From positions 3,676,001 to 3,740,000 of the forward strand of contig NZ_CP089924.1 of NCBI RefSeq assembly GCF_021284765.1: a DNA stretch of 64,000 nt, read 5' to 3'. Below are positions 37,141-54,464 of this stretch, piece after piece; the first letter of the stretch is position 1; each line of letters opens with the position of its first letter. The DNA comes from Lysobacter sp. 5GHs7-4 (GTDB taxonomy: Bacteria > Pseudomonadota > Gammaproteobacteria > Xanthomonadales > Xanthomonadaceae). Made by a program: the position numbers and the translations under genes. The notes beneath the pieces were generated by a model. It did no database searches. It saw nothing but the letters and a program-made list of their open reading frames with translations, and was not told the origin of the DNA.

Positions 37141-38433
37141 ATGAGCGCCTTGCTGGACTCCTTCTCCGAAGCGCTGGCCCCGCTGCTGCAGCGCCAGCGC
37201 TACCACGGCCCGCAACGCAGCCAGGCGATGGACGCCGCACTGCGGGCCGGCCTGCCGCATGCGCGCAGCGAGGCTTGGAAGTACACCCCGCTGCGCAACC
37301 TTGAGCGTCGCCGCTACGCCGCGCCGCAGCCGGGCCTGTTCGACGCCGCCCTGCTGGCCGCGATTCCGGCGCCGCGTTTGGTGTTCAACAACGGCCGCTA
37401 CGACGCCGCCCTGTCCGACCTCGGCGGCCTCGCCGCCGGCGTCTCGCTGCGGCCGCTGTCGCAGGTGCTGGCCGAAGACGATGCGCGCGCGTCGAATTTC
37501 CTGGAGCGCCGCTATGAGCGGCCCGAGGACATCTTCGCCCGCGTCAACGCCGCCCTGGCCGAGGACGGCGCGGTGCTCAAGGTCGCCGCCGGCACCCAGG
37601 GCGGCAGCGTGCATCTGGTGTTTGTGGGCGCGCCCGTCGAGGGCGACATCGCCTGGCACCTGCGCAACCTCATCGAACTGCAGGAAGGCGCCAGCCTGAC
37701 CGTGGTCGAGCACCAGCTCGGCGGCGGCGAGCACAGCCACCTGGGCAACAGCGTCAGCCACGTGCACCTGGCCACGCGCGCCGCGCTCACGCACGCGCGC
37801 GTGCAGGACGAGGCCGCGGGCGCGGTGTCGATGGCGCGCACCGACGCCGTGCTGTCGCGCGAAGCGGTCTACCGCCGCCTCGACCTGGAACTGGGCGCGG
37901 CCCTGTCGCGCCACGAACTCAATGTCGCCCTGCACGGCGAAGCCGCGCGCGTGCACGCCAACGGCGTGCTGCTGGCGACCGGCAAGCGCCATCTCGACAC
38001 CCGCCTGGGCATCGACCATGTCGGCCGCGACAGCGCCTGCGACCTGGTCTGGCGCGGCATGGGCGCCGGCCGTTCGCGTGCCGCTTTCCACGGCGGCATC
38101 CTGATCCGCGAAGGCGCCGACGGCACCGCGGCGATGCTGTCGAACAAAAACCTGCTGCTGTCCGAAGGCGCCGAGATCGACACCCAACCGGTGCTGGAGA
38201 TCCACGCCGACGAGGTCCAGGCCGCGCACGGCGCGACCGTCGGCCAGCTCGACGCCAACGCCCTGTTCTACCTGCGCTCGCGCGGCGTGCCCGCCGAGCA
38301 GGCGCGCGCGCTGCTGACCGCCGCGTTCTGTCGCGAGACGCTGAGCGTGTTCGACGACGCCGGACTGCGCGCGTTGCTGGAAGCGCGCCTGGACACCGCC
38401 CTGTCCGCGCTGGAAGCAGGCACCGCCGCATGA
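37141..38433 (+). CDS. sufD: Fe-S assembly protein SufD
   Basis: SufD, 430 residues, is the SufB-like partner in SufBC2D, helping iron entry. It has the N-terminal SEAWKYTPLRNLERRRYA (about 42-59), a beta-helix core (for example GEHSHLGNSVSHVHLATRAA, about 197-216), GRDSACDLVWRGMGAGRSRA, and the C-terminal VQAAHGATVGQLDANALFYL then RSRGVPAEQARALL shared by the family. The start ATG is one base past the sufC stop. Its stop overlaps the sufS start by four bases (ATGA). Confidence 0.95.
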   Translation: MSALLDSFSEALAPLLQRQRYHGPQRSQAMDAALRAGLPHARSEAWKYTPLRNLERRRYAAPQPGLFDAALLAAIPAPRLVFNNGRYDAALSDLGGLAAGVSLRPLSQVLAEDDARASNFLERRYERPEDIFARVNAALAEDGAVLKVAAGTQGGSVHLVFVGAPVEGDIAWHLRNLIELQEGASLTVVEHQLGGGEHSHLGNSVSHVHLATRAALTHARVQDEAAGAVSMARTDAVLSREAVYRRLDLELGAALSRHELNVALHGEAARVHANGVLLATGKRHLDTRLGIDHVGRDSACDLVWRGMGAGRSRAAFHGGILIREGADGTAAMLSNKNLLLSEGAEIDTQPVLEIHADEVQAAHGATVGQLDANALFYLRSRGVPAEQARALLTAAFCRETLSVFDDAGLRALLEARLDTALSALEAGTAA

Positions 38434-39662
38434 ACGCTGCCGCCGCCCCTATCGACTGGGCCGCCGTCCGCGCCGACTTCCCGCTGTTGGCGCGCGAGGT
38501 GCACGGCAAGCCGCTGATCTATTTCGACTCGGCCAACACCGGCCAGAAGCCCGAAGCGGTGATCGCCGCGGTCGACGACTTCTACCGCCGCCACAACGCC
38601 AACGTCAGCCGCGCGGTGCACGCGCTGGGCACCGAGGCCACCGAGGCCTACGAAGGCGCGCGCAACAAGCTGGCGAAGTTCCTCAACGTGCGCGCCGACG
38701 AGCTGGTGCTGTGCAGCGGCACCACCTTCGCGCTGAACCTGGTCGCGTATTCCTGGGCGCTGCCGCGGCTGCAGCCCGGCGACGCGATCATGCTCACGCG
38801 CATGGAGCACCACGCCAACATCGTGCCCTGGCAGTTGGTCGCCCAACGCACCGGCGCGGTCATCAAGGTCGCCGAGATCGACGCCCTGGGCCAGCTCGAC
38901 CTGCCGCAGTTGTACTCGCTGCTGACCCCGGACGTGAAGCTGCTGGCGCTGACCCACGTGTCCAACGTGCTGGGCACGGTCAATCCGGTGCGCGAGATCT
39001 GCCGCGAGGCGCGCAAGCGCGGCATCATCAGCGTCGTCGACGGTTCGCAGGCCGCGCCGCACCGCGCGCTCGACATCGCCGCGATCGGCTGCGACTTCTA
39101 TGCCATCACCGGCCACAAGATGAACGGCCCCACCGGCACCGGCGCGCTGTGGGCGCGGCGCGAGCATCTGGCGCAGATGCCGCCGTTCCTCGGCGGCGGC
39201 GAGATGATCAAGGAAGTGCGCTTCGAGGGCACGGTGTTCAACGACGCGCCGCACAAGTTCGAGGCCGGCACGCCCAACATCGCCGGTTTCGTCGGCCTGG
39301 GCGCGGCGGTGGACTACTTGTCGGCCCTGGGCATGCAGCACGTGGAGGCACGCGAGCAGGCGCTGCTCGAGTACGCGACCGCCGCGCTGTCGGCGGTGCC
39401 CGGCCTGCGCATCTTCGGCCAGGCGCAGGAAAAAGCGGCGGTGATCAGCTTCCTGGTCGAGGGCGCCCACGCGCACGACCTGGCCACCCTGCTCGACCTG
39501 GAAGGCGTGGCGATCCGCTCCGGCCATCATTGCGCGCACCCGCTGATGCACCATTTCGGCGTGCCTGCGACCTGCCGCGCCTCGCTGGCCTACTACAACA
39601 CCTACGACGAGATCGACGCTTTCGTCGCCGCCTTGAACAAAGTCCGCACCCTGCTCGCATGA
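38430..39662 (+). CDS. sufS: Cysteine desulfurase SufS
   Basis: SufS, 410 residues, is a group II PLP-dependent cysteine desulfurase. It takes sulfur from cysteine for SufB. It has IYFDSANTGQKPEAVIAAVD (about 31-50), the PLP lysine near residue 230 (YAITGHKMNGPTGTGALWAR), and the active-site cysteine near residue 368 in IRSGHHCAHPLMHHFGV. Group II enzymes usually need SufE or SufU as a partner, but neither is encoded in this operon, so one is expected elsewhere. Its ATG overlaps the sufD stop, and its stop overlaps the GNAT start. Confidence 0.95.
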   Translation: MNAAAAPIDWAAVRADFPLLAREVHGKPLIYFDSANTGQKPEAVIAAVDDFYRRHNANVSRAVHALGTEATEAYEGARNKLAKFLNVRADELVLCSGTTFALNLVAYSWALPRLQPGDAIMLTRMEHHANIVPWQLVAQRTGAVIKVAEIDALGQLDLPQLYSLLTPDVKLLALTHVSNVLGTVNPVREICREARKRGIISVVDGSQAAPHRALDIAAIGCDFYAITGHKMNGPTGTGALWARREHLAQMPPFLGGGEMIKEVRFEGTVFNDAPHKFEAGTPNIAGFVGLGAAVDYLSALGMQHVEAREQALLEYATAALSAVPGLRIFGQAQEKAAVISFLVEGAHAHDLATLLDLEGVAIRSGHHCAHPLMHHFGVPATCRASLAYYNTYDEIDAFVAALNKVRTLLA

Positions 39663-40204
39663 ACGACACGCCCCTGAGTTTCCGTCCCGCCACCCACGCC
39701 GACATCGACGCGCTGGTGGCCCTGGTCGAATCGGCCTACCGCGGCGACAGCAGCCGCGTAGGCTGGACCACCGAGGCCGACCTGCTCGGCGGCCGCCGCA
39801 CCGGCGCCGACGACATCATCGAATGCATCGAGCGCCCGCACAGCGTGCTGCTGGTGGCCGAACGCGCCGCCGATGGCGGCGACCCGGAGCTGCTGGCCTG
39901 CGCGCACGTCGCGATCGAGGACGGCGCCGGCTACTTCGGCCTGTTCTCGGTGCGCCCGAGCCTGCAGGGCGGCGGCATCGGCAAGATCGTCATCAACGAA
40001 GCCGAGCGCATCGCGCGCGAGGACTGGCGGCTGCCGGCGATGCGCATGACCGTGATCGACGTGCGCAGCGAGCTGATCGCCTATTACGAGCGCCGCGGCT
40101 ACCGCCGCACCGGCGTGATCAAGCCGTTCCCGTACGGCGATGCGCGTTTCGGCGATCCCAAGCGCGACGATCTGCGCTTCGAGGTTCTGGAAAAGCTGTT
40201 CTGA
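39659..40204 (+). CDS. GNAT-family N-acetyltransferase in the suf operon
   Basis: This 181-residue acetyltransferase opens LSFRPATHADIDALVALVES (6-25). The acetyl-CoA loop is VRPSLQGGGIGKIVINEAER (about 99-118), and the C-terminal motif is ELIAYYERRGYRRTGVIKPF. The Q-x-x-G-x-G/A pattern needed for acetyl-CoA binding is present (QGGGIGK). Its ATG overlaps the sufS stop (ATGA), so it is translated with the suf operon. The acceptor is unknown; its fixed place after sufS suggests it modifies a Suf protein or a small molecule in cluster supply, but that is speculation. Confidence 0.85.
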   Translation: MNDTPLSFRPATHADIDALVALVESAYRGDSSRVGWTTEADLLGGRRTGADDIIECIERPHSVLLVAERAADGGDPELLACAHVAIEDGAGYFGLFSVRPSLQGGGIGKIVINEAERIAREDWRLPAMRMTVIDVRSELIAYYERRGYRRTGVIKPFPYGDARFGDPKRDDLRFEVLEKLF

Positions 40205-40261
40205 GCACCGCGCCAGCCCGCCGTTGACCGGCCACCAGCCAGCCGTAAGAGAGCACGCACC

Positions 40262-40585
40262 ATGGGCAACTGGATTTTCGTTTGCGCCACCTCGCAGTTG
40301 CTGCCTGGCGAGTCCACCGTGGCCTGGGACGGCGACACGCCGATTCTGGTCTGCAACTACGACGGCGACTATTACGCGCTGGAGGACAAGTGCTCGCACG
40401 AGGACTTCGAGCTTTCGGCCGGCAACTACGACGGCGAAGCCGCCACGGTCGAGTGCGTGCTGCACGGCGCCAAGTTCGACATCCGCGACGGCCGCCCGCT
40501 GTGCGCGCCGGCTTACAGCCCGGTGCCGAAGTTCCCGGTCAAGGTCGACGACGTCGGCGTCTGGACCCGCGACGACCGCGGCTGA
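40262..40585 (+). CDS. Rieske-type [2Fe-2S] ferredoxin in the suf operon
   Basis: This 107-residue soluble Rieske protein has cluster ligands Cys44-His46 (DKCSHEDFELS) and Cys65-His68 (ECVLHGAKFDIRDGRP), the standard C-x-H and C-x-x-H pair. It lacks the membrane anchor of respiratory Rieske subunits and resembles the small ferredoxin subunits (BphF/NirD-like) that carry electrons to oxygenases or other redox enzymes. It ends the suf operon, 57 bp after the GNAT gene, and converges on an esterase gene. It may supply electrons for cluster assembly, or act as a recipient of clusters. Confidence 0.9.
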   Translation: MGNWIFVCATSQLLPGESTVAWDGDTPILVCNYDGDYYALEDKCSHEDFELSAGNYDGEAATVECVLHGAKFDIRDGRPLCAPAYSPVPKFPVKVDDVGVWTRDDRG

Positions 40586-40615
40586 TGCGGCCCGGCGATC
40601 GGGCCGCGACCCTGT

Positions 40616-41662
40616 TCAATCCTTGCTCAAGGCGCGTCGCAGCGCGGCCTGCCAGCTGGCGCTGAACTCGCGCGAGACTCGCGCCTGCCCGCTCATGATG
40701 TCGAAGCCGTGATAGGCACCTGGCACTACCTGCAGCTCGACGGGCACGCCGGCCTCGATCAAACGCGCGGCAAACGCCAGGTCCTCCTGCGCGAACAGGT
40801 CCAGGGCGCCCACGCCCATCCACGTCGGCGGCAGACCGCGCAGATCGGAGACGCGCGCCGGCACCGCTTCGGCGGGCGCCGTGTCCATGGTCGGCGTGCG
40901 CCCCAACACCGATGTCCAACCGTAGGCGTTCGAGCCCTCGTTCCAGATGTAGCGCCCGACGTGCGCGGGCGCTGAGCGCAGCGTGGTGCGGTCGTCCAGC
41001 ATCGGGTAGCGCAACACCTGTAAGCGGATCGAGTGCTCGCCGCGGTCGCGCGCGCGCAAGGCCACCGCGGCCGCGAGGCCGGCGCCTGCGCTCTCGCCAA
41101 GCAGGGCGATGCGGGCGGAGTCGACGCCCAGCGCATCGGCCGAGCGATGCAGCCAGCCCAGCGCCGCGTAGGCGTCGTCCAACCCAGCCGGGGTCGGGTG
41201 TTCGGGCGCGAGCCGGTAGTCGACCGACACCACCACCACTTCCAGCGCGCTCGCCAGTCTCTGCAATTCGGGCATCACCACTTCCGGCACGCCTACGACA
41301 TAGCCTCCACCGTGCAGATGCAGCACCGCCGGCTTGCCGCCCCGTTCGGGGGCGGGATCGAAGATCAGCACGCGCAGACGCGGATTGCCGGCACCGCCTT
41401 CGATGTAGCGCTCTAGCGGCTGAACGGCCGGCGGCGGCAGGGTCGGCGGCGGCGGCGCCCGGCGCACCGCCTGCACGTTGCTCCCATCCAAGGTCAATGC
41501 CGGAATCTGCGCCAGCACGGCGCGCAACTCCGGATCGACCTGCGCCAACGCGGCCGCATCGACGGCAGCCGTCGCGGTGCCCGACGCCGATTGGGCGCCG
41601 GCGTCCGCCGCACACAGGCAGGCGATCAGAGCGAGGGACGAAGCAGGAACGGATCGACGCAT
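40616..41662 (-). CDS. Exported HSL-family alpha/beta hydrolase (esterase)
   Basis: This 348-residue esterase has a signal peptide (SLALIACLCAADAGAQ), so it is periplasmic or secreted. Hormone-sensitive-lipase-family motifs are complete: HLHGGGYVVGVPEV (oxyanion HGGG), nucleophile Ser in LLGESAGAGLAAAV, then a catalytic Asp in the LDLFAQEDLAFA region and His in PGAYHGFDIM. A clear AGGAG site lies 5 nt before the ATG. Substrates are probably short acyl esters. It stands alone and converges with the suf operon. Confidence 0.88.
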   Translation of the reverse strand: MRRSVPASSLALIACLCAADAGAQSASGTATAAVDAAALAQVDPELRAVLAQIPALTLDGSNVQAVRRAPPPPTLPPPAVQPLERYIEGGAGNPRLRVLIFDPAPERGGKPAVLHLHGGGYVVGVPEVVMPELQRLASALEVVVVSVDYRLAPEHPTPAGLDDAYAALGWLHRSADALGVDSARIALLGESAGAGLAAAVALRARDRGEHSIRLQVLRYPMLDDRTTLRSAPAHVGRYIWNEGSNAYGWTSVLGRTPTMDTAPAEAVPARVSDLRGLPPTWMGVGALDLFAQEDLAFAARLIEAGVPVELQVVPGAYHGFDIMSGQARVSREFSASWQAALRRALSKD

Positions 41663-42005
41663 GGGTACTCCTGTGTGAGGGGCGGCGCTTGAGCGCTGCG
41701 TCGCAGGTCGCCGGGGCGTGGCCTGCCTTCATCTGGCCCGCCACGCCGACAGATCGGAACAGCCTGCCAGGGCCAAGCGCTGCCCATTTCGAAGTTGTCC
41801 GAAGCATGACACTGCCTCATCGCCCTCGGTTTCCCCTGCCCCTGCCGGCTTCCCCAGCCCCCTCTGGCGCGTTTCGACCACCGCCGAGCCGGTTTTTCTC
41901 GACTCCGCGTTCATTTTTCGTTGCAAATGCGAATCGCTCTCATTAATATTCCCGATTGACGCGGCCCCAGCGGCCGCACCTCCCCTACGCTTTCTCGGAA
42001 TTCCC
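41663..42005. promoter_or_regulatory. Intergenic control region before the TonB receptor
   Basis: Divergent space between the esterase (minus) and the receptor (plus). Its right end is AT-rich and carries the Fur box and promoter given separately. The left end holds the AGGAG ribosome site of the esterase. I see no gene in it. Confidence 0.6.
41921..41949 (+). promoter_or_regulatory. Promoter with embedded Fur box
   Basis: The -35 TTGCAA (41921-41926), 17-bp spacer and -10 TAATAT (41944-41949) form a good sigma-70 promoter. The spacer is filled by AATGCGAATCGCTCTCATT (41926-41944), which matches 14 of 19 positions of the Fur consensus core AATGATAATCATTATCATT. Fur bound with iron would cover both promoter elements, so the downstream island should be switched on by iron starvation. 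Confidence 0.75.
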
Positions 42006-44327
42006 ATGTCGACCACGAAGTTCGTCGTGTCGCCGCTTGCCGGCGCCCTTGCTCTCGCCCTCAGCGTTCCTGCGGTCGCCGCCCCCGCGCCCGACCCCCA
42101 GGCCAAGGATCTGGACGGCGTCGAAGTCCACGGCGTGAAGGTGCAGAAGGCCAGCTCGGGCAAGTACACCGCGCCGCTGCGCGATACCCCGCAGACGATC
42201 ACCGTGATCGACCGCAGCACCATCGACGGCCAGAACCTGCTGTCGCTGCAGGACATCCTGGCGACCCTGCCGGGCATCACCTTCGGCGCCGGCGAAGGCG
42301 GCGGCGGTTTCGGCGACAAGATCAACCTGCGCGGCTTCGACGCCAGCAACGACATCACCGTCGACGGCGTGCGCGACAGCGGTCTGTACAGCCGCACCGA
42401 TCCGTTCAACCTGGAATCGGTGGAAGTCATCAACGGCGCCAACTCGGTCTACTCGGGCGCGGGCTCGGTGGCCGGCACCATCAACCTGGTCAGCAAGTCG
42501 GCCGGCGCCACCGAATTCCACCGCGCCAGCATCGCCGCGGGCACCGACGACTACGCCCGCGTCACCGCCGACAGCAACTTCCTGCTCGGCGAGAGCAGCG
42601 CGTTCCGCATCAACGTGATGGCGCACCAGAACGACGTACCCGGCCGCGACGTCGAGCGCAACGAGCGCTGGGGCATCGCGCCCTCGCTGACCTTCGGCCT
42701 GGGCAGCGACACCACCTGGACGCTGAACTACGTCCACCAGGAAGACGACAACATCCCCGAGTACGGCGTGCCGTTCTTCAACGGCGGCCCGCTGCCGGGC
42801 GTCGATCCGTCGACCTATTACGGCTACAAGAACATCGACAAGCAGGAAATCGAGTACGACTCGCTGACCTCGATCCTGGAGCACCGTTTCAGCGACACCA
42901 TGAAGGTGCGCAACCTGACGCGCTGGCAGCAGGTCGACCAGTTCTCGCTGGTGGACGCGGTGCAGGGCACCTGGTGCATGCCCAACGGCCTCACTCCGCT
43001 CGGCGTCGCCTGCCCGGCCGGCGTGGGCCCGGGCCGCTACTTGCCCAGCGGCCCGCGCGGTTTCGGCCGCGACACCCGCAACACCACGCTGTACACCCAG
43101 ACCGACCTGACCACCGAGTTCAACACCGGCCCGGTGCAGCACACCCTGGTCGCGGGCTTCTCGGTGATGCACGAAAGCTTCGACCTGGACACCACCAGCG
43201 ATTTCCGCAACGCCAACGGCACCAACCCGTACATCACCGGCCTGCCGACGATGGACATGTTCAACCCGGACAACGTCTACCGCGGCCCGATCAACCGCAC
43301 CCTGACCGGCCGCACCGAAGGCGAGCTCGACAACCAGGCGATCTACGTGTTCGACACCATCAAGTTCAGCGAGCAGTGGTTGCTGAGCCTGGGCGCGCGC
43401 TACGAGCACAACGAAGGCAAGACCAACACCGCCACCGTGGTGCTGGCGCCGACCACCGTGGGCGCGCCGCTGCCGGCGCAGCCGATCGGCACCGTCACCG
43501 GCTACGGCGTGCCGGCCAAGAACACCGACGATCTGTTCTCGTATCGCGCGGGCTTGGTCTACAAGCCGGTCGAGAACGTCAGCATCTACGCCGCCTACGG
43601 CAACTCCAAGACGCCGTCCAAGGCCTCGGTCAACGGCTCGTGCACGCTCACCAGCACCACCGGCACCGCCAACTGCACGGTCGATCCGGAAACCGCGGTC
43701 AACTACGAGATCGGCGCCAAGTGGGACCTGTTCGACGGCCGCCTGGCCCTGACCGGCTCGCTGTTCCGTAACGATCGCGAGAACTACAAGGTCTCCGATC
43801 CGGGCAACCCGAACAACCCGACCGGCGCGCAGCAGCTCGACGGCCGTGCGCGCGTCGACGGCGCGATGCTGGGCCTGTCCGGCCTGCTCACCGACCATTG
43901 GGCCGTCTACGCCAACTACGCCTACCTCGACAGCGAAGTCGTGCAGGGCGTGTCCGACCGTCAGGCCGGCCTGGGCCTGGACTACACCAAGGGCGACCGC
44001 CTGCTGAACGTGCCGGAGCACTCCTTCAGCCTGTGGACCACCTACGACCTGTCGCCCAAGTGGCAGATCGGCTACGGCGCGACCTACCAGGGCAAGATCT
44101 GGCTGACCCAGCACAGCGCGACCAACCCCAACGGCCCGCTGGTCACCGCCGACAGCTATTGGACCCACCGCGCGATGGTCAACTACAAGATCAACCGCAA
44201 CGCCGCCCTGCAGCTCAACGTCAGCAACCTGGCCGACGAGGAGTACTACACCCGCATCCGCAACAACGGCTGGGCGACGCCGGGCGAGGCGCGCCAGGTG
44301 GTATTGAGCGCCAACTTCACGTTCTAA
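42006..44327 (+). CDS. TonB-dependent siderophore receptor (Fiu/PiuA-like)
   Basis: This 773-residue outer-membrane receptor has a signal peptide (LAGALALALSVPAVAA), a plug domain (LRDTPQTITVIDRSTIDGQN, about 58-77; GFGDKINLRGFDASNDITVD; GSVAGTINLVSKSAG) and a 22-strand-type barrel. It ends RQVVLSANFTF with the C-terminal aromatic residue. Plug and barrel patterns fit the catecholate receptor group. The piuC-like gene that follows supports a PiuA/Fiu assignment. It transports ferric siderophores using TonB energy. Expression is expected to be Fur-repressed through the box at 41926-41944. The ATG at 42006 gives the signal peptide directly. Confidence 0.9.
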   Translation: MSTTKFVVSPLAGALALALSVPAVAAPAPDPQAKDLDGVEVHGVKVQKASSGKYTAPLRDTPQTITVIDRSTIDGQNLLSLQDILATLPGITFGAGEGGGGFGDKINLRGFDASNDITVDGVRDSGLYSRTDPFNLESVEVINGANSVYSGAGSVAGTINLVSKSAGATEFHRASIAAGTDDYARVTADSNFLLGESSAFRINVMAHQNDVPGRDVERNERWGIAPSLTFGLGSDTTWTLNYVHQEDDNIPEYGVPFFNGGPLPGVDPSTYYGYKNIDKQEIEYDSLTSILEHRFSDTMKVRNLTRWQQVDQFSLVDAVQGTWCMPNGLTPLGVACPAGVGPGRYLPSGPRGFGRDTRNTTLYTQTDLTTEFNTGPVQHTLVAGFSVMHESFDLDTTSDFRNANGTNPYITGLPTMDMFNPDNVYRGPINRTLTGRTEGELDNQAIYVFDTIKFSEQWLLSLGARYEHNEGKTNTATVVLAPTTVGAPLPAQPIGTVTGYGVPAKNTDDLFSYRAGLVYKPVENVSIYAAYGNSKTPSKASVNGSCTLTSTTGTANCTVDPETAVNYEIGAKWDLFDGRLALTGSLFRNDRENYKVSDPGNPNNPTGAQQLDGRARVDGAMLGLSGLLTDHWAVYANYAYLDSEVVQGVSDRQAGLGLDYTKGDRLLNVPEHSFSLWTTYDLSPKWQIGYGATYQGKIWLTQHSATNPNGPLVTADSYWTHRAMVNYKINRNAALQLNVSNLADEEYYTRIRNNGWATPGEARQVVLSANFTF

Positions 44328-44390
44328 TCCGGACTTCCACGTCCGCGCGCGCCGCCCGGGACCTCCCGGGCGGCCGCATTGAGGCCATCC

Positions 44391-45077
44391 ATGCTGCTGC
44401 ACGTCCCCAAAGTCCTCGGCCCCGAACAGGTCGCGCATTGCCGGCAGCGGCTGGCGCAGGCCGGCTGGGCCGACGGCCGCATCACCGCCGGGCATCAGTC
44501 GGCCAAGGCCAAGGACAACGCGCAGCTGCCCGAAAACGATCCGGTCGCGCGCGAGCTGGGCGCGATCATCCTCGACGCCCTGGCCAAGAGCCCGACCTTC
44601 TTCTCCGCCGCACTGCCGCAGCGCGTGTTCCCGCCGCTGTTCAACCGCTACGAAGGCGGCCAGGCGTTCGGCTTCCACGTCGACAACGCGATCCGCTACG
44701 ACCGCAGCCGCGGCGGCATGGACACGGTGCGCACCGACCTGTCGGCGACGCTGTTCCTGTGCGAGCCGGAGGAATACGACGGCGGCGAACTGGTGATCGA
44801 GGACACCTACGGCAGCCACAGCATCAAGCTGCCGGCCGGCGACCTGGTGCTTTACCCCGGGACCAGCCTGCACAAGGTCACGCCGGTCACGCGCGGCGCG
44901 CGTCTGGCCTCGTTCTTCTGGATCCAGAGCCTGCTGCGCGAGGACGCGCAACGCCGGCTGATGTTCGAACTCGACGTCTCGATCCGCCGCCTCACCGCCG
45001 ACGTGCCCGAGCATCCGGCGCTGGTGCAGCTGACCGGCGTGTACCACAACCTGCTGCGGCGCTGGAGCGAGCCTTGA
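44391..45077 (+). CDS. piuC: Fe(II)/2-oxoglutarate dioxygenase, PiuC/YbiX type
   Basis: This 228-residue PKHD-type hydroxylase family protein has iron ligands His96 and Asp98 ([12 protein letters not shown]) and His161 ([16 protein letters not shown]), and the 2-oxoglutarate-binding Arg near 168. The N-terminal [10 protein letters not shown] and the [10 protein letters not shown] segment are typical of PiuC. In Pseudomonas piuC lies beside the siderophore receptor piuA, as here. Its substrate is not known; modification of siderophore or iron-related compounds is often suggested. A TTG at 44379 is possible, but the ATG at 44391 fits the family. The next gene starts inside its stop codon. Confidence 0.92.
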
Positions 45078-45739
45078 GCGCCAGCGACGCCACCGCGCGC
45101 GCGCGCGATGCGGCCGCCGCCAAGGCCGGCGATCCGAACCGGCGCGCGTACTGGCTCAAGACCCTGCACCGCTGGCATTGGATCAGCGCCGCGCTGAGCC
45201 TGGTCGCGCTGGTGCTGTTCGCCGCCACCGGCATCACCCTCAACCACGCCGCGCAGATCGAATCCGAGCCGCAGGTGGTCACGGTCAAGGACACCTTGCC
45301 GGCCAGCGCCTTGCGCGGCCTGCAGGGCGAGCGCGCGGCCGATGCGCCGCTGCCGGCCGGCGCGCGCGACTGGCTGCGCGCGCAGCTGGGCGTGAACGCC
45401 GAGGGCCGCAGCGTGGAATGGTCCGACGGCGAGGTCTACGTGTCGCTGCCGCGCCCGGGCGGCGACGCCTGGCTCAGCATCGACCGCGAGAGCGGCGCGA
45501 TCGAATACGAAGTCACCACCCGCGGCTGGATCGCCTGGCTCAACGACCTGCACAAGGGCCGCAACACCGGCGCGGTGTGGCGCTGGTTCATCGACCTGTT
45601 CGCGGTCGCCTGCCTGCTGTTCGCGCTGACCGGCCTGTGGCTGCTGCAACTGCACGCGCGCCAGCGCGGCAAGACCTGGCCGCTGGTCGCGGCGGGGCTG
45701 GCGATACCGGCGCTGCTGATCGTCCTTTTCATGCATTGA
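45074..45739 (+). CDS. PepSY-associated transmembrane protein
   Basis: This 221-residue inner-membrane protein of the PepSY_TM family has a first membrane helix at [20 protein letters not shown] (about 31-50) and a periplasmic domain with PepSY-like [17 protein letters not shown] (about 137-153). Two more helices follow ([20 protein letters not shown], about 176-195; [18 protein letters not shown]). Conserved His residues at HRWHW and near helix ends could bind haem or metals. In PiuB a PepSY unit is fused to a flavoreductase. Here the reductase is a separate gene at 48226, in the same operon. It starts with TTG at 45074, overlapping the piuC stop. Confidence 0.82.
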
Positions 45740-45755
45740 CCCCCTGGAGATAGCG

Positions 45756-46277
45756 ATGAAGTTGTTGCCCCGCACCGCACTGATCGTCGCCCTGGCGATG
45801 CCGGTGTCGGCGATCGCCGCCGACCTCGACCTGAGCATCGAGATCCCGCGCCTGAAGGTCGCCGAATACCACCGCCCCTACGTCGCGGCCTGGATCGAGC
45901 GCCCCGACAACACGGTCGCCGCCAACCTGGCGGTCTGGTACGACGTCGACATGAAGAACGGCGAAGGCACCAAGTGGCTGAAGGACATCCGCCAGTGGTG
46001 GCGACGCAGCGGCCGCACGCTGAAGATGCCGGTCGACGGCGTCAGCGGCGCGACCCGCGCGGTCGGCCAGCACGCGCTGAACTTCAAGGGCGGCAGCAAG
46101 CCGCTGGCCGGTCTGGCCCCGGGCCAGTACACGCTGGTGGTCGAGGCCGCGCGCGAAGTCGGCGGCCGCGAAATGCTGAGCATTCCGTTCCAGTGGCCGG
46201 CCAAGGGCGGCGCACAGAACCTGTCGGCGCAAGGCAAGACCGAACTGGGCGCGGTGCGCCTGGCGGTGAAGCCCTGA
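45756..46277 (+). CDS. Exported DUF2271 protein with FMN-attachment motif
   Basis: This 173-residue periplasmic protein has a Sec signal (ALIVALAMPVSAIAA) and a DUF2271 beta-sandwich (LDLSIEIPRLKVAEYHRPYV, AAWIERPDNTVAANLAVWYD). The segment MPVDGVSGATRAVGQH contains D94-G-V-S-G-A-T100, a match to the ApbE target pattern in which the threonine receives FMN by a phosphoester link. An ApbE gene lies two genes downstream. The protein is thus predicted to be a flavinylated periplasmic electron carrier between the membrane reductase and ferric siderophores. The FMN claim is inference from motif and context. It follows the PepSY gene by 16 bp. Confidence 0.83.
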   Translation: MKLLPRTALIVALAMPVSAIAADLDLSIEIPRLKVAEYHRPYVAAWIERPDNTVAANLAVWYDVDMKNGEGTKWLKDIRQWWRRSGRTLKMPVDGVSGATRAVGQHALNFKGGSKPLAGLAPGQYTLVVEAAREVGGREMLSIPFQWPAKGGAQNLSAQGKTELGAVRLAVKP

Positions 46278-46365
46278 TCCGCGATCAGGCCGCGCGCGCA
46301 TCGCGCCGCGGCTTCGCGTCCGTCTCGCTTACGACGAACTCTCTCATCACTTCGGAGCTGCGCCC

Positions 46366-47172
46366 ATGAAGATCAAACTCGCCGCCCTCGCGCTCGCCGC
46401 GCTCGGCTTCGCCACCTCCGCACAGGCGCACAAGGCCTGGCTGCAGCCCTCGCAGACCGTGTTCTCCGACAAGGGCGCCTGGCTGACCGTCGACGCGGCC
46501 GTGTCCAACGACCTGTTCTACTTCAACCACGTGCCGCTGCCGCTGGAGCGCTTGCGCATCACCGCGCCGGACGGCAGCGCGGTGCAGCCGCAGAACGCGG
46601 CCACCGGCAAGCTGCGCAGCGTGTTCGACGTCGAACTGGCGCAGGAAGGCACCTACAAGATCGCCATGGTCAACGAGGGCATGTTCGCCAGCTACAAGCT
46701 GGGCGGCGAAGCCAAGCGCTGGCGCGGCAAGGCCGAGGAGTTCAAGGCCGGCATCCCGGCCGGTGCGACCGAAGTCAACGCATCGGAAAGCATGGGCCGC
46801 GTCGAGACCTTCGCCACCGTCGGCTCGCCGACCACCACCGTGTTCAAGAGCAGCGGCAAGGGCATCGAGCTGGTGCCGGTCACCCACCCCAACGACCTGT
46901 TCGCGGGCGAGAAGGCGACCTTCCAGTTGCTGGTCGACGGCAAGCCGGCCGCGGGTCTGAAGATCGAAGTGGTGCCGGGCGCGACCCGTTACCGCGATCA
47001 GCAGAACGACATGCAGCTGACCAGCGGCGCCGACGGCAAGTTCGAGATCACCTGGCCGCAGGCCGGCATGTACTGGCTGGAAACCGCCAGCGAAGACGCC
47101 AAGACCACGCTGCCGGAAGCCAAGCAGCGCCGTCTGAGCTACGTCGCCGTGTTCGAAGTGCTGGCGCAATAA
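46366..47172 (+). CDS. Exported DUF4198 protein
   Basis: This 268-residue periplasmic protein has a signal MKIKLAALALAALGFATSAQ-A, with mature N-terminus HKAWLQPSQTVFSDKGAWLT. An N-terminal histidine after cleavage is common in this family and could help bind metal. Two beta-sandwich regions follow: about 22-150 with VNEGMFASYKLGGEAKRW, and about 165-268 with LVDGKPAAGLKIEVVPGATR. DUF4198 proteins often sit beside PepSY, DUF2271 and ApbE genes and are linked to metal or cobalamin uptake. No flavin motif is visible here. Probably periplasmic metal or siderophore handling. Confidence 0.82.
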   Translation: MKIKLAALALAALGFATSAQAHKAWLQPSQTVFSDKGAWLTVDAAVSNDLFYFNHVPLPLERLRITAPDGSAVQPQNAATGKLRSVFDVELAQEGTYKIAMVNEGMFASYKLGGEAKRWRGKAEEFKAGIPAGATEVNASESMGRVETFATVGSPTTTVFKSSGKGIELVPVTHPNDLFAGEKATFQLLVDGKPAAGLKIEVVPGATRYRDQQNDMQLTSGADGKFEITWPQAGMYWLETASEDAKTTLPEAKQRRLSYVAVFEVLAQ

Positions 47173-47203
47173 GCGAACCGACGTGCGAACGCCTGAGGTC
47201 CGC

Positions 47204-48208
47204 ATGACGTGGAGCGGCACGAGTTGGGGCGACTCCGCCCCAACCGCCGCCAGCACGCGTGCGCTGCACACGCTGACCGGCCGCAGCATGGGCACGCAGT
47301 GGTCGGTGAAGCTGGTCGCCGAGGCCGCCGCCCTGACGGCGCTGGAGCGCGGCATCCAGGCGCGCCTGGACGAGGTCGTCGCGCAGATGAGCACCTGGGA
47401 GCCGGATTCCGACCTCAGCCGTTACAACCGCGCCGAGGCCGGCACGGTGCAGGCGCTGCCGGACGGTTTCTATGCGGTGCTGGACGCGGCGCTGAAACTG
47501 GCCGCCGACACCGACGGCGCCTACGACCCCACCGTCGGCCCCTTGGTCAACCTGTGGGGCTTCGGCCCCGACGGCGCGCGCGACGCGACGCCGTCGGAGG
47601 CCGACATCGCCCAGGCGCAGGCACGCGTGGGCTGGCAGCGGGTCGGTTTCGATCCGCTCGCGCGCAGCGCGACGCAGGCTGGCGGCACCTATCTGGATTT
47701 CTCCTCGATCGCCAAGGGCTACGGCGTGGACCGCGTGGCGGCGTGGCTGCGCGAGCAACAGATCGACGCCTTCCTGGTCGAGGTCGGCGGCGAGCTGTAC
47801 GGCCACGGGCGCAAGCCCGATGGCGGCGCCTGGCGAATCGCGATTGAACGCCCCCAGCACGATGCCGAAGAGGACGACGGCGGCGCGGCGCTCGCGTTGG
47901 ACGGATTCGCGATCGCGACCTCTGGCGACTACCGGCGCTATTTCGATCACCAGGGCCGCCGCTATTCGCACACCGTCGACCCGCGCAGCGGCCGGCCGGT
48001 CGCGCATGCGCTGGCCTCGGTCAGCGTGCTGCACCCGCAATGCATGCAGGCCGATGCCCTGGCCACGGTGCTGGCGGTGCTGGGCCCGCAGGCGGGCATG
48101 GCCTACGCCAACCGCCGTCAGTTGGCGGCGATGTTCGTCATGCACGACGGCGACGGCTTCCTGACCCGGATGACGCCGGCCTTCATCGCGCGCCAGCGCG
48201 CGGCCTGA
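47204..48208 (+). CDS. apbE: FAD:protein FMN transferase (ApbE)
   Basis: This protein of 334 residues has the ApbE signatures TGRSMGTQWSVKLVAEAA (about 26-43), DGAYDPTVGPLVNLWGFGPD (about 104-123), GTYLDFSSIAKGYGVDRVAA (about 163-182) and EVGGELYGHGRKPDGGAWRI. The metal site SGDYRRYFDHQGRRYSHTVD then PRSGRPV is also present. It moves FMN from FAD to a threonine of a target protein; the DUF2271 protein in the operon carries a fitting motif. Oddly there is no signal peptide or lipobox, though ApbE usually works in the periplasm, and only 31 bp separate it from the previous gene. A GTG at 47183 would add 7 non-hydrophobic residues. I chose ATG 47204, which has GAGG upstream. Confidence 0.88.
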   Translation: MTWSGTSWGDSAPTAASTRALHTLTGRSMGTQWSVKLVAEAAALTALERGIQARLDEVVAQMSTWEPDSDLSRYNRAEAGTVQALPDGFYAVLDAALKLAADTDGAYDPTVGPLVNLWGFGPDGARDATPSEADIAQAQARVGWQRVGFDPLARSATQAGGTYLDFSSIAKGYGVDRVAAWLREQQIDAFLVEVGGELYGHGRKPDGGAWRIAIERPQHDAEEDDGGAALALDGFAIATSGDYRRYFDHQGRRYSHTVDPRSGRPVAHALASVSVLHPQCMQADALATVLAVLGPQAGMAYANRRQLAAMFVMHDGDGFLTRMTPAFIARQRAA

Positions 48209-48225
48209 GGTTGCGTTCGTCGCGT

Positions 48226-49884
48226 ATGTCCGCCCGTACCACTTCCGCTGCTGCGCACCGACGCATCGACTTGAGCACGATCGGCAACGCGCTGGTATTG
48301 CTGGCGCTGGCCGTGCTCGCCTACCTGTTGCTGCGCTGGCAGGCCGAGCCGGTGCGCTGGCTGGCACCGGACCGGCAGCGGCTGCTGTGGGCGGCCGCGG
48401 GCGCGGGCGCATACGCCGCCTTCGTCGGCGCCGTCGCTTGGGCGCGCGCACGCCGCGCGCGTGCGCAGGCGTTGCCGCGCGCGGCCGCGGACACCGCCCA
48501 CGAATGGCTGGTCGCCTACGCCAGTCAGACCGGCCACGCCGAGTTCCTGGCGCGTCGCAGCTGGCAGGCGCTGGCCGACAGCGGCATCGGCGCCGATATC
48601 GCCTTGCTCGGCGGCCTGGATGGGAGCGCGTTGGCGCGCTATCGCCAAGCGCTGTTCGTGGTCAGCACCACCGGCGAAGGCGACGCGCCGGATTCGGCCG
48701 CGCGCTTCGTGCGCGTGGCGATGGGCGCGCCGGCGGATCTGTCCGGCCTGCGCTATGGCGTGCTCGCGCTGGGCGATCGCGAGTACGAGCAGTACTGCAG
48801 CTTCGGACACCGCCTGGATCACTGGCTGCGCCACGCCGGCGCGCAGCCCCTGTTCGATCTGGTCGAGGTCGACAACGGCGAGCCCGGCGCGCTGCGCCAC
48901 TGGCAGCATCACCTGGGTTTGCTCGCCGGCCACACCGATCTGCCCGATTGGAGCGCGCCGTCGTACCGCCCTTGGCGCCTGAGCGAACGCGCGCTGCTCA
49001 ACCCGGACAGCGTCGGCGGCCCCGCGTTCCATATCGCGCTGACGCCGGAAGACCCGGCCGAACTGCAATGGCAGGCCGGCGACATCGCCGAGATCGGGCC
49101 GCGCAACGGCGAAGCCGATGTGGCCGCATGGCTGGCGGAGGCGCAGCAGGACGGCGCGGCACCCGTGCGCATCGGCGATGAGATCGACAACTTGACCGCC
49201 CGCCTGCGCGCTTCGCGCCTGCCCGACGCGCACGCCGCGCGCACGCAGTCGCCGCAAGCGATCGCCGAGGCCCTGCAGCCGTTGCCGCACCGCGAGTACT
49301 CGATCGCCTCCCTGCCAGACGACGGCAGCCTGCACTTGCTGGTGCGGCAGATGCGACAGCCCGACGGACGCCTGGGCAGCGGCAGCGGCTGGCTGACCGC
49401 GCATGCCGCCGAACAGGCGCGCATCGATCTGCGCATCCGCCGCAACCCCTCCTTCCACGCGCCGCCCGACGCGCGGCCGATGATCCTGATCGGCAACGGC
49501 ACCGGCATCGCCGGCCTGCGCGCGCTGCTGAAGACGCGCATCGCCAACGGACAGACGCGCAACTGGCTGCTGTTCGGCGAACGCAGCGCGGCCCACGACT
49601 TCCACTACCGCAACGAGCTGCAGACCTGGCTGAGCGACGGTCTGATCGAGCGCATCGACCTGGCGTTCTCGCGCGACGGCATCGAACGCGTGTACGTGCA
49701 GCAGCGCCTGCGCGAACAGAGCGCGCGCTTGCGCGAATGGTTGGACGCGGGCGCCGCGGTCTATGTCTGCGGCAGCCTGGAAGGCATGGCGCCGGCGGTG
49801 GATGCCGTGCTGCGCGAGACGGTGGGCCTGGAGGCGCTGGAAGCGATGGCGCTGGATGGGCGCTACCGGCGCGACGTGTACTAA
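48226..49884 (+). CDS. Membrane-anchored flavodoxin / NADPH-FAD reductase
   Basis: This 552-residue protein of CysJ/PiuB type has two N-terminal membrane helices (about 18-40, including NALVLLALAVLAYLLLRW, and 46-68). A flavodoxin domain (VAYASQTGHAEFLARRSWQA, about 101-120; VVSTTGEGDAPDSAARFV) is followed by FAD-binding PLPHREYSIASLPDDG and NADPH-binding MILIGNGTGIAGLRALL. The C-terminus is GRYRRDVY, as in sulfite-reductase flavoproteins. It would pass electrons from cytoplasmic NADPH to the PepSY membrane protein and on to the flavinylated periplasmic protein. It lacks the PepSY part found in PiuB, which is supplied separately in this operon. Start at ATG 48226 gives both helices. Confidence 0.88.
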   Translation: MSARTTSAAAHRRIDLSTIGNALVLLALAVLAYLLLRWQAEPVRWLAPDRQRLLWAAAGAGAYAAFVGAVAWARARRARAQALPRAAADTAHEWLVAYASQTGHAEFLARRSWQALADSGIGADIALLGGLDGSALARYRQALFVVSTTGEGDAPDSAARFVRVAMGAPADLSGLRYGVLALGDREYEQYCSFGHRLDHWLRHAGAQPLFDLVEVDNGEPGALRHWQHHLGLLAGHTDLPDWSAPSYRPWRLSERALLNPDSVGGPAFHIALTPEDPAELQWQAGDIAEIGPRNGEADVAAWLAEAQQDGAAPVRIGDEIDNLTARLRASRLPDAHAARTQSPQAIAEALQPLPHREYSIASLPDDGSLHLLVRQMRQPDGRLGSGSGWLTAHAAEQARIDLRIRRNPSFHAPPDARPMILIGNGTGIAGLRALLKTRIANGQTRNWLLFGERSAAHDFHYRNELQTWLSDGLIERIDLAFSRDGIERVYVQQRLREQSARLREWLDAGAAVYVCGSLEGMAPAVDAVLRETVGLEALEAMALDGRYRRDVY

Positions 49885-49998: not shown

Positions 49999-50302
49999 CG
50001 GAAACGAAGATCTTGCGCTCGTGGCGCTCTATGCCGTCATCCCCGCGAAAGCGGGGATCCAATGACTTCAGTGCCATGCGTCGGCGAACAGCTCAACACC
50101 CAGACGGGAAACGAGGATCTTGGATTCGTAGTGCCTTATGCCGTCATCCCCGCGAAAGCGGAGATCCTGTGACTTCAGCGCCATGCGTCGGCGAACAGCT
50201 CAACACCCAGACGGGAAACGAGGATCTTGGATTCGTGGCGCTCTGTGCTGTCATCCCCGCGAAAGCGGGGATCCAGTGACTTCAGCGCCATGCGTCGGCG
50301 AC
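49999..50302. repeat. Tandem array of a 107-bp repeat with embedded REP core
   Basis: The REP core GTCATCCCCGCGAAAGCGGG begins at 50036, 50143 and 50250, exactly 107 bp apart. Between cores the sequence (TGACTTCAGCGCCATGCGTC, GGCGAACAGCTCAACACCCA, GACGGGAAACGAGGATCTTG) is nearly identical, with a partial first unit and a truncated last unit. A related single core lies inverted at about 54434-54463. This is a short local amplification of a REP unit. Confidence 0.85.
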
Positions 50303-54431: not shown

Positions 54432-54464
54432 GTCACTGGATCCCCGCTTTCGCGGGGATGACGA
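54432..54464. repeat. Inverted single copy of the GTCATCCCCGC REP core
   Basis: ACTGGATCCCCGCTTTCGCG then GGGATGAC is the reverse complement of the core repeated at 50036, 50143 and 50250, here as a single unit between the GlsB-like gene and cysNC. Confidence 0.7.

Follow-up and report, generated by a model that had tools for sequence, protein, structure and literature searches.

We analysed a 64,000-nucleotide window of Lysobacter sp. 5GHs7-4 (contig NZ_CP089924.1, positions 3,676,001 to 3,740,000), in which seven co-directional genes on the plus strand (42006-49884) encode a TonB-dependent siderophore receptor, the dioxygenase PiuC, a small PepSY membrane protein, a DUF2271 protein, a DUF4198 protein, the flavin transferase ApbE and a reductase. 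Our preferred reading, to which we give a probability of about 0.55, is that these genes form a Fur-repressed iron-siderophore operon in which an electron chain from reduced nicotinamide adenine dinucleotide phosphate (NADPH) leads to flavin mononucleotide (FMN) on the DUF2271 protein, and in which ApbE loads the DUF2271 preprotein with FMN in the cytoplasm before export by Sec. The unusual feature appears to be that the flavin-attaching enzyme stays inside the cell while its target is exported. In general accounts of protein flavinylation for extracytosolic electron transfer, ApbE is periplasmic and anchored in the membrane, and it needs flavin adenine dinucleotide (FAD) outside the cytosol. 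If our reading is correct, the flavin is loaded inside the cell and FAD export is unneeded for this widespread iron-reduction system, Sec must pass a flavin-modified chain, surveys that demand a signal peptide on ApbE would misplace this enzyme, and the accepted ApbE motif is widened. The features of the region are as follows.

41923..41947, + strand: Fur-box-like promoter site, two overlapping 19-base matches, 12/19 to the Fur consensus
42006..44327, + strand: TonB-dependent siderophore receptor, Fiu/CciT-like (PF00593 3.4e-53, PF07715 5e-22, TIGR01783)
44391..45077, + strand: Fe(II)/2-oxoglutarate dioxygenase of the piuC/cciO/ybiX type (PF13640, PF18331, NF003975)
45074..45739, + strand: PepSY_TM_like_2 membrane protein, TTG start, 4-base overlap with piuC (PF16357 6.7e-79)
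45756..46277, + strand: DUF2271 protein with a Sec-type signal peptide, predicted FMN carrier (PF10029 3.2e-51)
46035..46055, + strand: flavinylation motif D-G-V-S-G-A-T, residues 94-100 (Thr100), in a conserved column of DUF2271
46366..47172, + strand: secreted DUF4198 protein (PF10670 1.8e-58; signal peptide by inspection)
47183..48208, + strand: ApbE flavin transferase without a signal peptide (PF02424 1.3e-89; GTG start, ATG possible at 47204)
48226..49884, + strand: flavodoxin/FAD/NADPH reductase, CysJ-like, two N-terminal helices by inspection (PF00258, PF00175)

Reading on from the upstream stop, the first start codon in the ApbE frame of the window is the one at 47183, and none of the possible starts places a hydrophobic stretch ahead of the core; neither a signal peptide nor a lipobox was found. 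The protein has the PF02424 domain and the Ser-His-Asp triad of an FAD:protein FMN transferase (S247-H263-D291, each residue conserved in at least 76 of 77 rows), with the same spacing as the triad S241-H257-D285 given for Vibrio ApbE in the part of a review that we consulted (PMC12052999). A decayed ApbE was rejected because the triad is intact and the ratio of nonsynonymous to synonymous divergence (dN/dS) is 0.20 and 0.27 against two relatives.

We compared this ApbE with those of other genomes, using a family sample of 61 loci (60 fetched and the window), 60 loci drawn from the phylum, and a named sample from a wider search (the best 80 of 589 loci). A protein was scored as signalled if a hydrophobic segment reached at least 1.9, with every ATG, GTG or TTG start up to 60 codons from the core scored. 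Among the 121 family and phylum loci, 15 of 100 ApbEs reached this value; of the controls, none of 51 PiuC proteins, which are cytosolic, and 94 of 97 DUF4198 proteins did so. DUF2271 proteins reached 1.9 in 62 of 96 cases and 1.6 in 93 of 96. One ApbE (L140, score 1.92) was relabelled by eye as lacking a signal, and three borderline ones (L100, L138 and L203) were counted in the same way. In the named sample 55 of 63 ApbEs were signal-less, 7 were signalled and 1 was borderline, with 17 loci lacking an ApbE. A tree was built from 133 non-redundant ApbEs that lie beside DUF2271, after removal of identical cores (some named loci repeat family loci) and of two loci with unread motifs (L205 and L212); 117 of these ApbEs were signal-less. 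Public gene calls on two plasmids also begin the ApbEs of Methylobacterium and Acidovorax without a signal peptide.

A control set was taken from the best 20 of 30 low-scoring family ApbE matches, three of which proved to be ApbE-DUF2271 fusions. Of the 17 left, which have no DUF2271 within stretches of about 2.5 kb (the absence holds for the stretch only), 16 were signal-positive and the remaining one scored 1.79. The 25 family and phylum loci without DUF2271 by the local profile were left out of the motif table; ten of them (L146-152 and L155-157) have a distant DUF2271 with the motif [DNS]-G-x-[ST]-G-A-S and a signal-less ApbE, and the one of these ten that was checked carries a long PepSY-fused reductase.

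In the position of a signal peptide, 34 of the 117 signal-less ApbEs have the N-terminal element R-[VILM]-[LFAV]-[IV]-P (for example L208, L172, L121, L238 and L263), compared with none of the 16 signalled ones and a shuffled expectation of 0.39. The annotated Methylobacterium ApbE also starts with this element. It is lacking in the window ApbE and in 82 others of the 117.

The target side was examined in the same loci. The D-G-V-S-G-A-T motif that the earlier note, a reading made from the sequence alone, had placed at residues 94-100 is indeed there, in the conserved column of the domain, and T100 is invariant in both alignments (A1 and A4). The motif fits the canonical D-x-x-[ST]-G-A-[ST], in which replacement of alanine by valine is described as lowering labelling to about 50% (PMC12052999, as consulted). 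Two arginines occur within the first 12 residues of only 3 of 111 parsed DUF2271 signals beside a signal-less ApbE, which makes these signals Sec-like (25 of 176 regions were unparsable), and Tat export of a folded flavinylated DUF2271 was rejected on this ground.

Among the family and phylum loci 43 of 96 motifs end in x-P-T instead of x-A-T. All 43 have an ApbE in the cluster, of which 42 scored signal-less, the other being the borderline L140, and none of 19 loci without a nearby ApbE has the proline. In the named sample the proline motif occurs in 15 loci, each of which has a signal-less ApbE, and in none of the 7 with a signalled ApbE or the 17 without one. On the tree, the 117 signal-less ApbEs divide into 60 with x-A-T and 57 with x-P-T, and all 16 signalled ones go with x-A-T. 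None of the 43 proline motifs has lost the aspartate or the target threonine, suggesting that these motifs still take FMN. The tree requires at least 2 changes of signal and 9 of motif, and a paired test of the proline motif against the missing signal gave p = 1, because close pairs with different motifs are mostly alike in signal. We therefore claim no statistical independence and reject the association as a case of independent evolution; the link rests on the absence of the opposite combination, and relatedness bars an independent test. The window clade falls in a 14-row group with signal-bearing ApbEs (support 82, unrooted tree), and the window ApbE may thus have lost its signal separately. 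ApbE position 208, which stood out as a candidate for co-variation with x-P-T, was the best of several hundred columns and is confounded by relatedness, and is kept as a lead only. We suggest tentatively, at somewhat less than even odds, that pre-export loading by a DUF2271-dedicated ApbE extends across Proteobacteria and that such pairs repeatedly shifted from x-A-T to x-P-T.

With ApbE lacking a signal peptide, a simple model in which enzyme and DUF2271 meet in the periplasm does not fit this genome, and FMN is most likely attached to the preprotein in the cytoplasm. The signal-less ApbE and the signalled DUF2271 were computed, and from them we infer that ApbE would use the FAD available in the cytoplasm to flavinylate the DUF2271 preprotein, which Sec would then export in its modified form. 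In the parts of the literature consulted, a motif as short as seven residues works and truncated cytosolic ApbEs are active (PMC12052999), and a DUF2271 protein was flavinylated when it and its ApbE, both signal-truncated, were co-expressed in E. coli (PMC8238504). Because a seven-residue tag suffices and truncated pairs work in the E. coli cytoplasm, loading before export is chemically reasonable. The portions consulted of the literature on DUF2271, on ApbE localisation and motif and on PepSY reductases contain no discussion of a cytosolic ApbE for an exported DUF2271. Meheust et al. (PMC8238504) list signal predictions in supplementary tables and may have seen signal-less ApbEs.

Several observations weigh against loading before export. 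To our knowledge, no FMN-bearing preprotein has been described crossing SecYEG. The signal test measures hydrophobicity and is not SignalP, and it performed poorly on the receptors, of which only 34 of 77 reached 1.9, probably because frame placement was rough. Signalled ApbEs occur in 16 of the 133 clusters, and the window clade groups with some of them. The three ApbE-DUF2271 fusions (L244, L249 and L257, the last confirmed by Pfam) have signal-like N-termini with scores of 1.72, 2.01 and 2.07, which means that extracytosolic flavinylation occurs as well; in a fusion, the membrane does not come between enzyme and substrate. Three genomes (G006, G085 and G058; loci L072, L086 and L090) have a signal-less ApbE directly after the receptor-PiuC pair, at dN/dS 0.28-0.33, and neither DUF2271 nor FMN_bind was found in any of the three. 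These genomes are probably Xanthomonas; G111, of the same genus, has an ApbE nearest to that of Xanthomonas bonasiae (L202). An ApbE kept without DUF2271 in them may have another target. A profile search of the PDB with the small PepSY protein of the window returned no convincing solved relative and no FoxB, and its haem binding is therefore predicted from conserved histidines only. As far as the consulted parts of the sources go, the only DUF2271-linked ApbE tested in vitro is described with a signal peptide (PMC8238504), and an apbE mutant was not rescued by cytosolically expressed ApbE (PMC12052999).

Other explanations were considered. Within the same iron-reduction chain, a signal-less ApbE might reach the periplasm by leaderless or partner-assisted export and modify DUF2271 there, which we consider unlikely, though not negligibly so. 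The review as consulted places the ApbEs of exported targets in the periplasm (PMC12052999), the ApbE-DUF2271 fusions look signalled, and the R-[VILM]-[LFAV]-[IV]-P element could serve docking or export. However, 83 of the 117 signal-less ApbEs, that of the window included, lack the element, and no export route that fits is known to us. It is more doubtful that the main target of ApbE is cytosolic and that flavinylation of DUF2271 is partial or absent. This would account for the constrained signal-less ApbE in the three genomes where DUF2271 was not found and for the proline in place of alanine in 57 of 133 clusters, and Klebsiella has a cytosolic ApbE with a cytosolic target (PMC12052999, as consulted); but the window motif is canonical, the last threonine is kept in all 43 proline-type motifs, and the genome has no FMN_bind domain (no search was made for other kinds of cytosolic target).

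We think it improbable that the chain reduces another metal complex, such as copper, instead of a ferric siderophore. The Bordetella PepSY_TM protein CrpH, whose gene neighbours that of a copper TonB receptor, has a supporting role for haem-copper oxidases, but in the sources as consulted it belongs to a different PepSY_TM subfamily and its operon lacks a Fur site (PMC13038864, PMC12914433), whereas the siderophore-type receptor, PiuC and the conserved Fur-like site of the window point to iron. A wrongly chosen start or a sequence error is a very improbable cause of the missing signal peptide: the N-termini are predicted, but the frame has no alternative start up to 47183, all starts up to 60 codons from the core were scored, and 117 of 133 genes, spread over many genera, lack the signal, in agreement with public annotation in the two cases examined.

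In the electron chain that goes with loading before export, the receptor would import a ferric (xeno)siderophore complex and PiuC probably processes the siderophore ligand. The membrane-anchored reductase would pass NADPH electrons through FAD and FMN to the haem or haems of the small PepSY protein, from which they would reach FMN on Thr100 of the periplasmic DUF2271 protein. The DUF2271 flavin, perhaps with DUF4198, would then reduce Fe(III), and the operon, repressed by Fur, would serve iron acquisition. This route, from NADPH over the reductase and the PepSY protein to FMN on DUF2271, had been put forward in the earlier note; it holds as a prediction, given the siderophore receptor and probable Fur control, and it is not new. 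We regard the chain as plausible, with haem content, electron path and substrate all predicted. In the PepSY protein H35, H160, H194 and H221 are invariant and H58 is near-invariant among 18 sequences. It has 221 residues and matches the PepSY_TM model (295 positions) over 170-291 only, so that it is not the full-length PepSY_TM protein of FoxB/PiuB-type reductases. The same genome has three full-length PepSY_TM matches without stops elsewhere. Outside the window, at G000:C1:2800024-2801342, a PepSY_TM match lies in two pieces, one with an internal stop, and may be a disrupted full-length PepSY gene.

Meheust et al. 2021 have already described this system under the name of "PepSY-like" flavinylation cluster (PMC8238504; statements here follow the portions consulted). 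Their definition asks for a PF03929 or PF16357 protein clustered with ApbE/DUF2271 and for a signal peptide on the product of one or more target genes, and the window has PF16357, ApbE and a DUF2271 protein with a signal peptide. In both, a PepSY-like protein, DUF2271, DUF4198 and ApbE are clustered, some of the published systems with TonB genes: of 3220 PepSY-like clusters, 2833 have DUF2271, 1500 have DUF4198 and 231 have a TonB gene. Iron reduction was proposed for these clusters, and one DUF2271 protein was shown to be flavinylated by its ApbE at the motif threonine, which a Thr-to-Ala change abolishes. That work differs in being framed on extracytosolic flavinylation, and the text consulted mentions neither the location of the cluster ApbE nor x-P-T (PMC8238504).

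The five-gene core was reported earlier, in 2013, as the Fur-regulated/repressed Caulobacter operon CC3059-3063 (CCNA_03155-03159), the C. crescentus locus being compared by description (PMC3751524). The window has the same five core genes, but in Caulobacter the receptor and dioxygenase are a separate pair elsewhere (CCNA_00028/00027, cciT/cciO), whereas those of the window head the operon. Insertions in the Caulobacter operon lowered fitness with ethylenediaminetetraacetic acid (PMC11870441, as consulted). In Alteromonas macleodii, DUF2271/DUF4198 gene pairs are induced by iron limitation and adjoin Fe-responsive TonB receptors, but there DUF2271 is fused to PF16357 or to an ApbE-type (COG1477) domain (PMC7190382, as consulted). 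In Caulobacter segnis (L238) the motif is D-G-V-T-S-P-T and the ApbE is signal-less. VciB of Vibrio cholerae (COG3295) presumably shares PF16357 with the window protein. According to the parts of the sources consulted, VciB is a PepSY-like homologue with reported iron reductase activity (PMC8238504, PMC11870441), but it is not associated with flavinylation genes (PMC8238504). FoxB, PiuB and HiuB are described with His-ligated haem in the inner membrane and Fur-linked siderophore use (PMC13001220, as consulted); they have a full-length PepSY_TM, with two PepSY domains in FoxB, whereas the window has a half-size PF16357 protein and a separate flavin carrier. The Klebsiella pneumoniae ApbE for fumarate reductase likewise has no signal peptide, but its target stays cytosolic (PMC12052999, as consulted), whereas the DUF2271 target of the window has a signal peptide.

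The earlier note had seen the notable twist in a PiuB split into two genes with a separate carrier. This claim fails, since the five-gene core was known in 2013 and the class in 2021, and we reject a split PiuB as a novelty. In the surveyed clusters a small PF16357 protein is what is commonly seen; other clusters (two checked) have a full-length PepSY_TM in fusion with the reductase, again beside DUF2271 and ApbE. With both forms in existence, the split is not a twist.

The gene order was compared in the same three samples. The five core genes (PepSY-DUF2271-DUF4198-ApbE-reductase) stand in order in 52 of the 61 family loci and all seven in 30, so the order is not due to chance. Among the best 80 of 589 named loci the five-gene order occurs in 56 and the seven-gene order in 11; the corresponding counts for the 60 phylum loci are 16 and 0. 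A Methylobacterium currus plasmid carries the receptor, dioxygenase, PepSY, DUF2271, DUF4198 and ApbE genes in the order of the window. With these counts and this plasmid, the operon is ordinary for its family.

Fur control is probable. No match to the exact Fur consensus with up to 3 mismatches was found, and the site at 41923 has 12 of 19 consensus bases, a value equalled at five other places in the 64 kb; shuffled promoter regions reach 11 to 14 matches, so the site is not significant by consensus alone. Upstream of the receptor, a site of the form GCAAATG[AC]GAAT...TCTC ranks first or joint first among the matches in each of the 10 loci examined (8 distinct genomes, the window included). 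Thus the Fur box proposed in the earlier note is weaker than claimed, although a conserved Fur-like site stands at this place.

The seven genes lie on one strand with short gaps or overlaps, as had been proposed: their coordinates and Pfam and NCBIfam matches agree on the set, and the intergenic distances in gene order are 63, -4, 16, 88, 10 and 17 bases. The receptor scores 250.6 bits with the TonB-siderophore model TIGR01783, above the cut-off of 223.5, and 453 bits with the Fiu model, below the cut-off of 686. PiuC matches PKHD_C (3.9e-22) and 2OG-Fe(II) oxygenase (2e-13) in Pfam and exceeds the cut-off in 3 of 4 matched PKHD-type NCBIfam models (NF003975, 370 bits versus 180). The reductase matches Flavodoxin_1 (4.5e-25) and NAD_binding_1 (2.3e-11), with PF00667 below the cut-off, and its nearest PDB relatives are CysJ chains. 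Pfam profiles detect a single ApbE and a single DUF2271 in the whole genome, and no FMN_bind domain. All six genes tested are under purifying selection (dN/dS 0.08-0.30, window against two relatives). Against L039 and L040, synonymous divergence is 0.42-0.56 in apbE and the reductase gene versus 0.17-0.24 in the piuC, PepSY, DUF2271 and DUF4198 genes, a doubling that perhaps reflects codon bias or recombination.

Upstream of the operon (38430-41662) lie, on the same strand, genes for a class-V aminotransferase, which we take to be SufS-like, and a Rieske ferredoxin-like protein, followed by an alpha/beta hydrolase gene on the opposite strand. The palindromic repeat ATCCCCGCGAAAGCGGGGAT occurs in the window at 50039-50058, 50146-50165, 50253-50272 and 54440-54459 (4 copies when 3 mismatches are allowed, where 0.01 would be expected); the first three copies are spaced 107 bases apart and stand directly after the operon.

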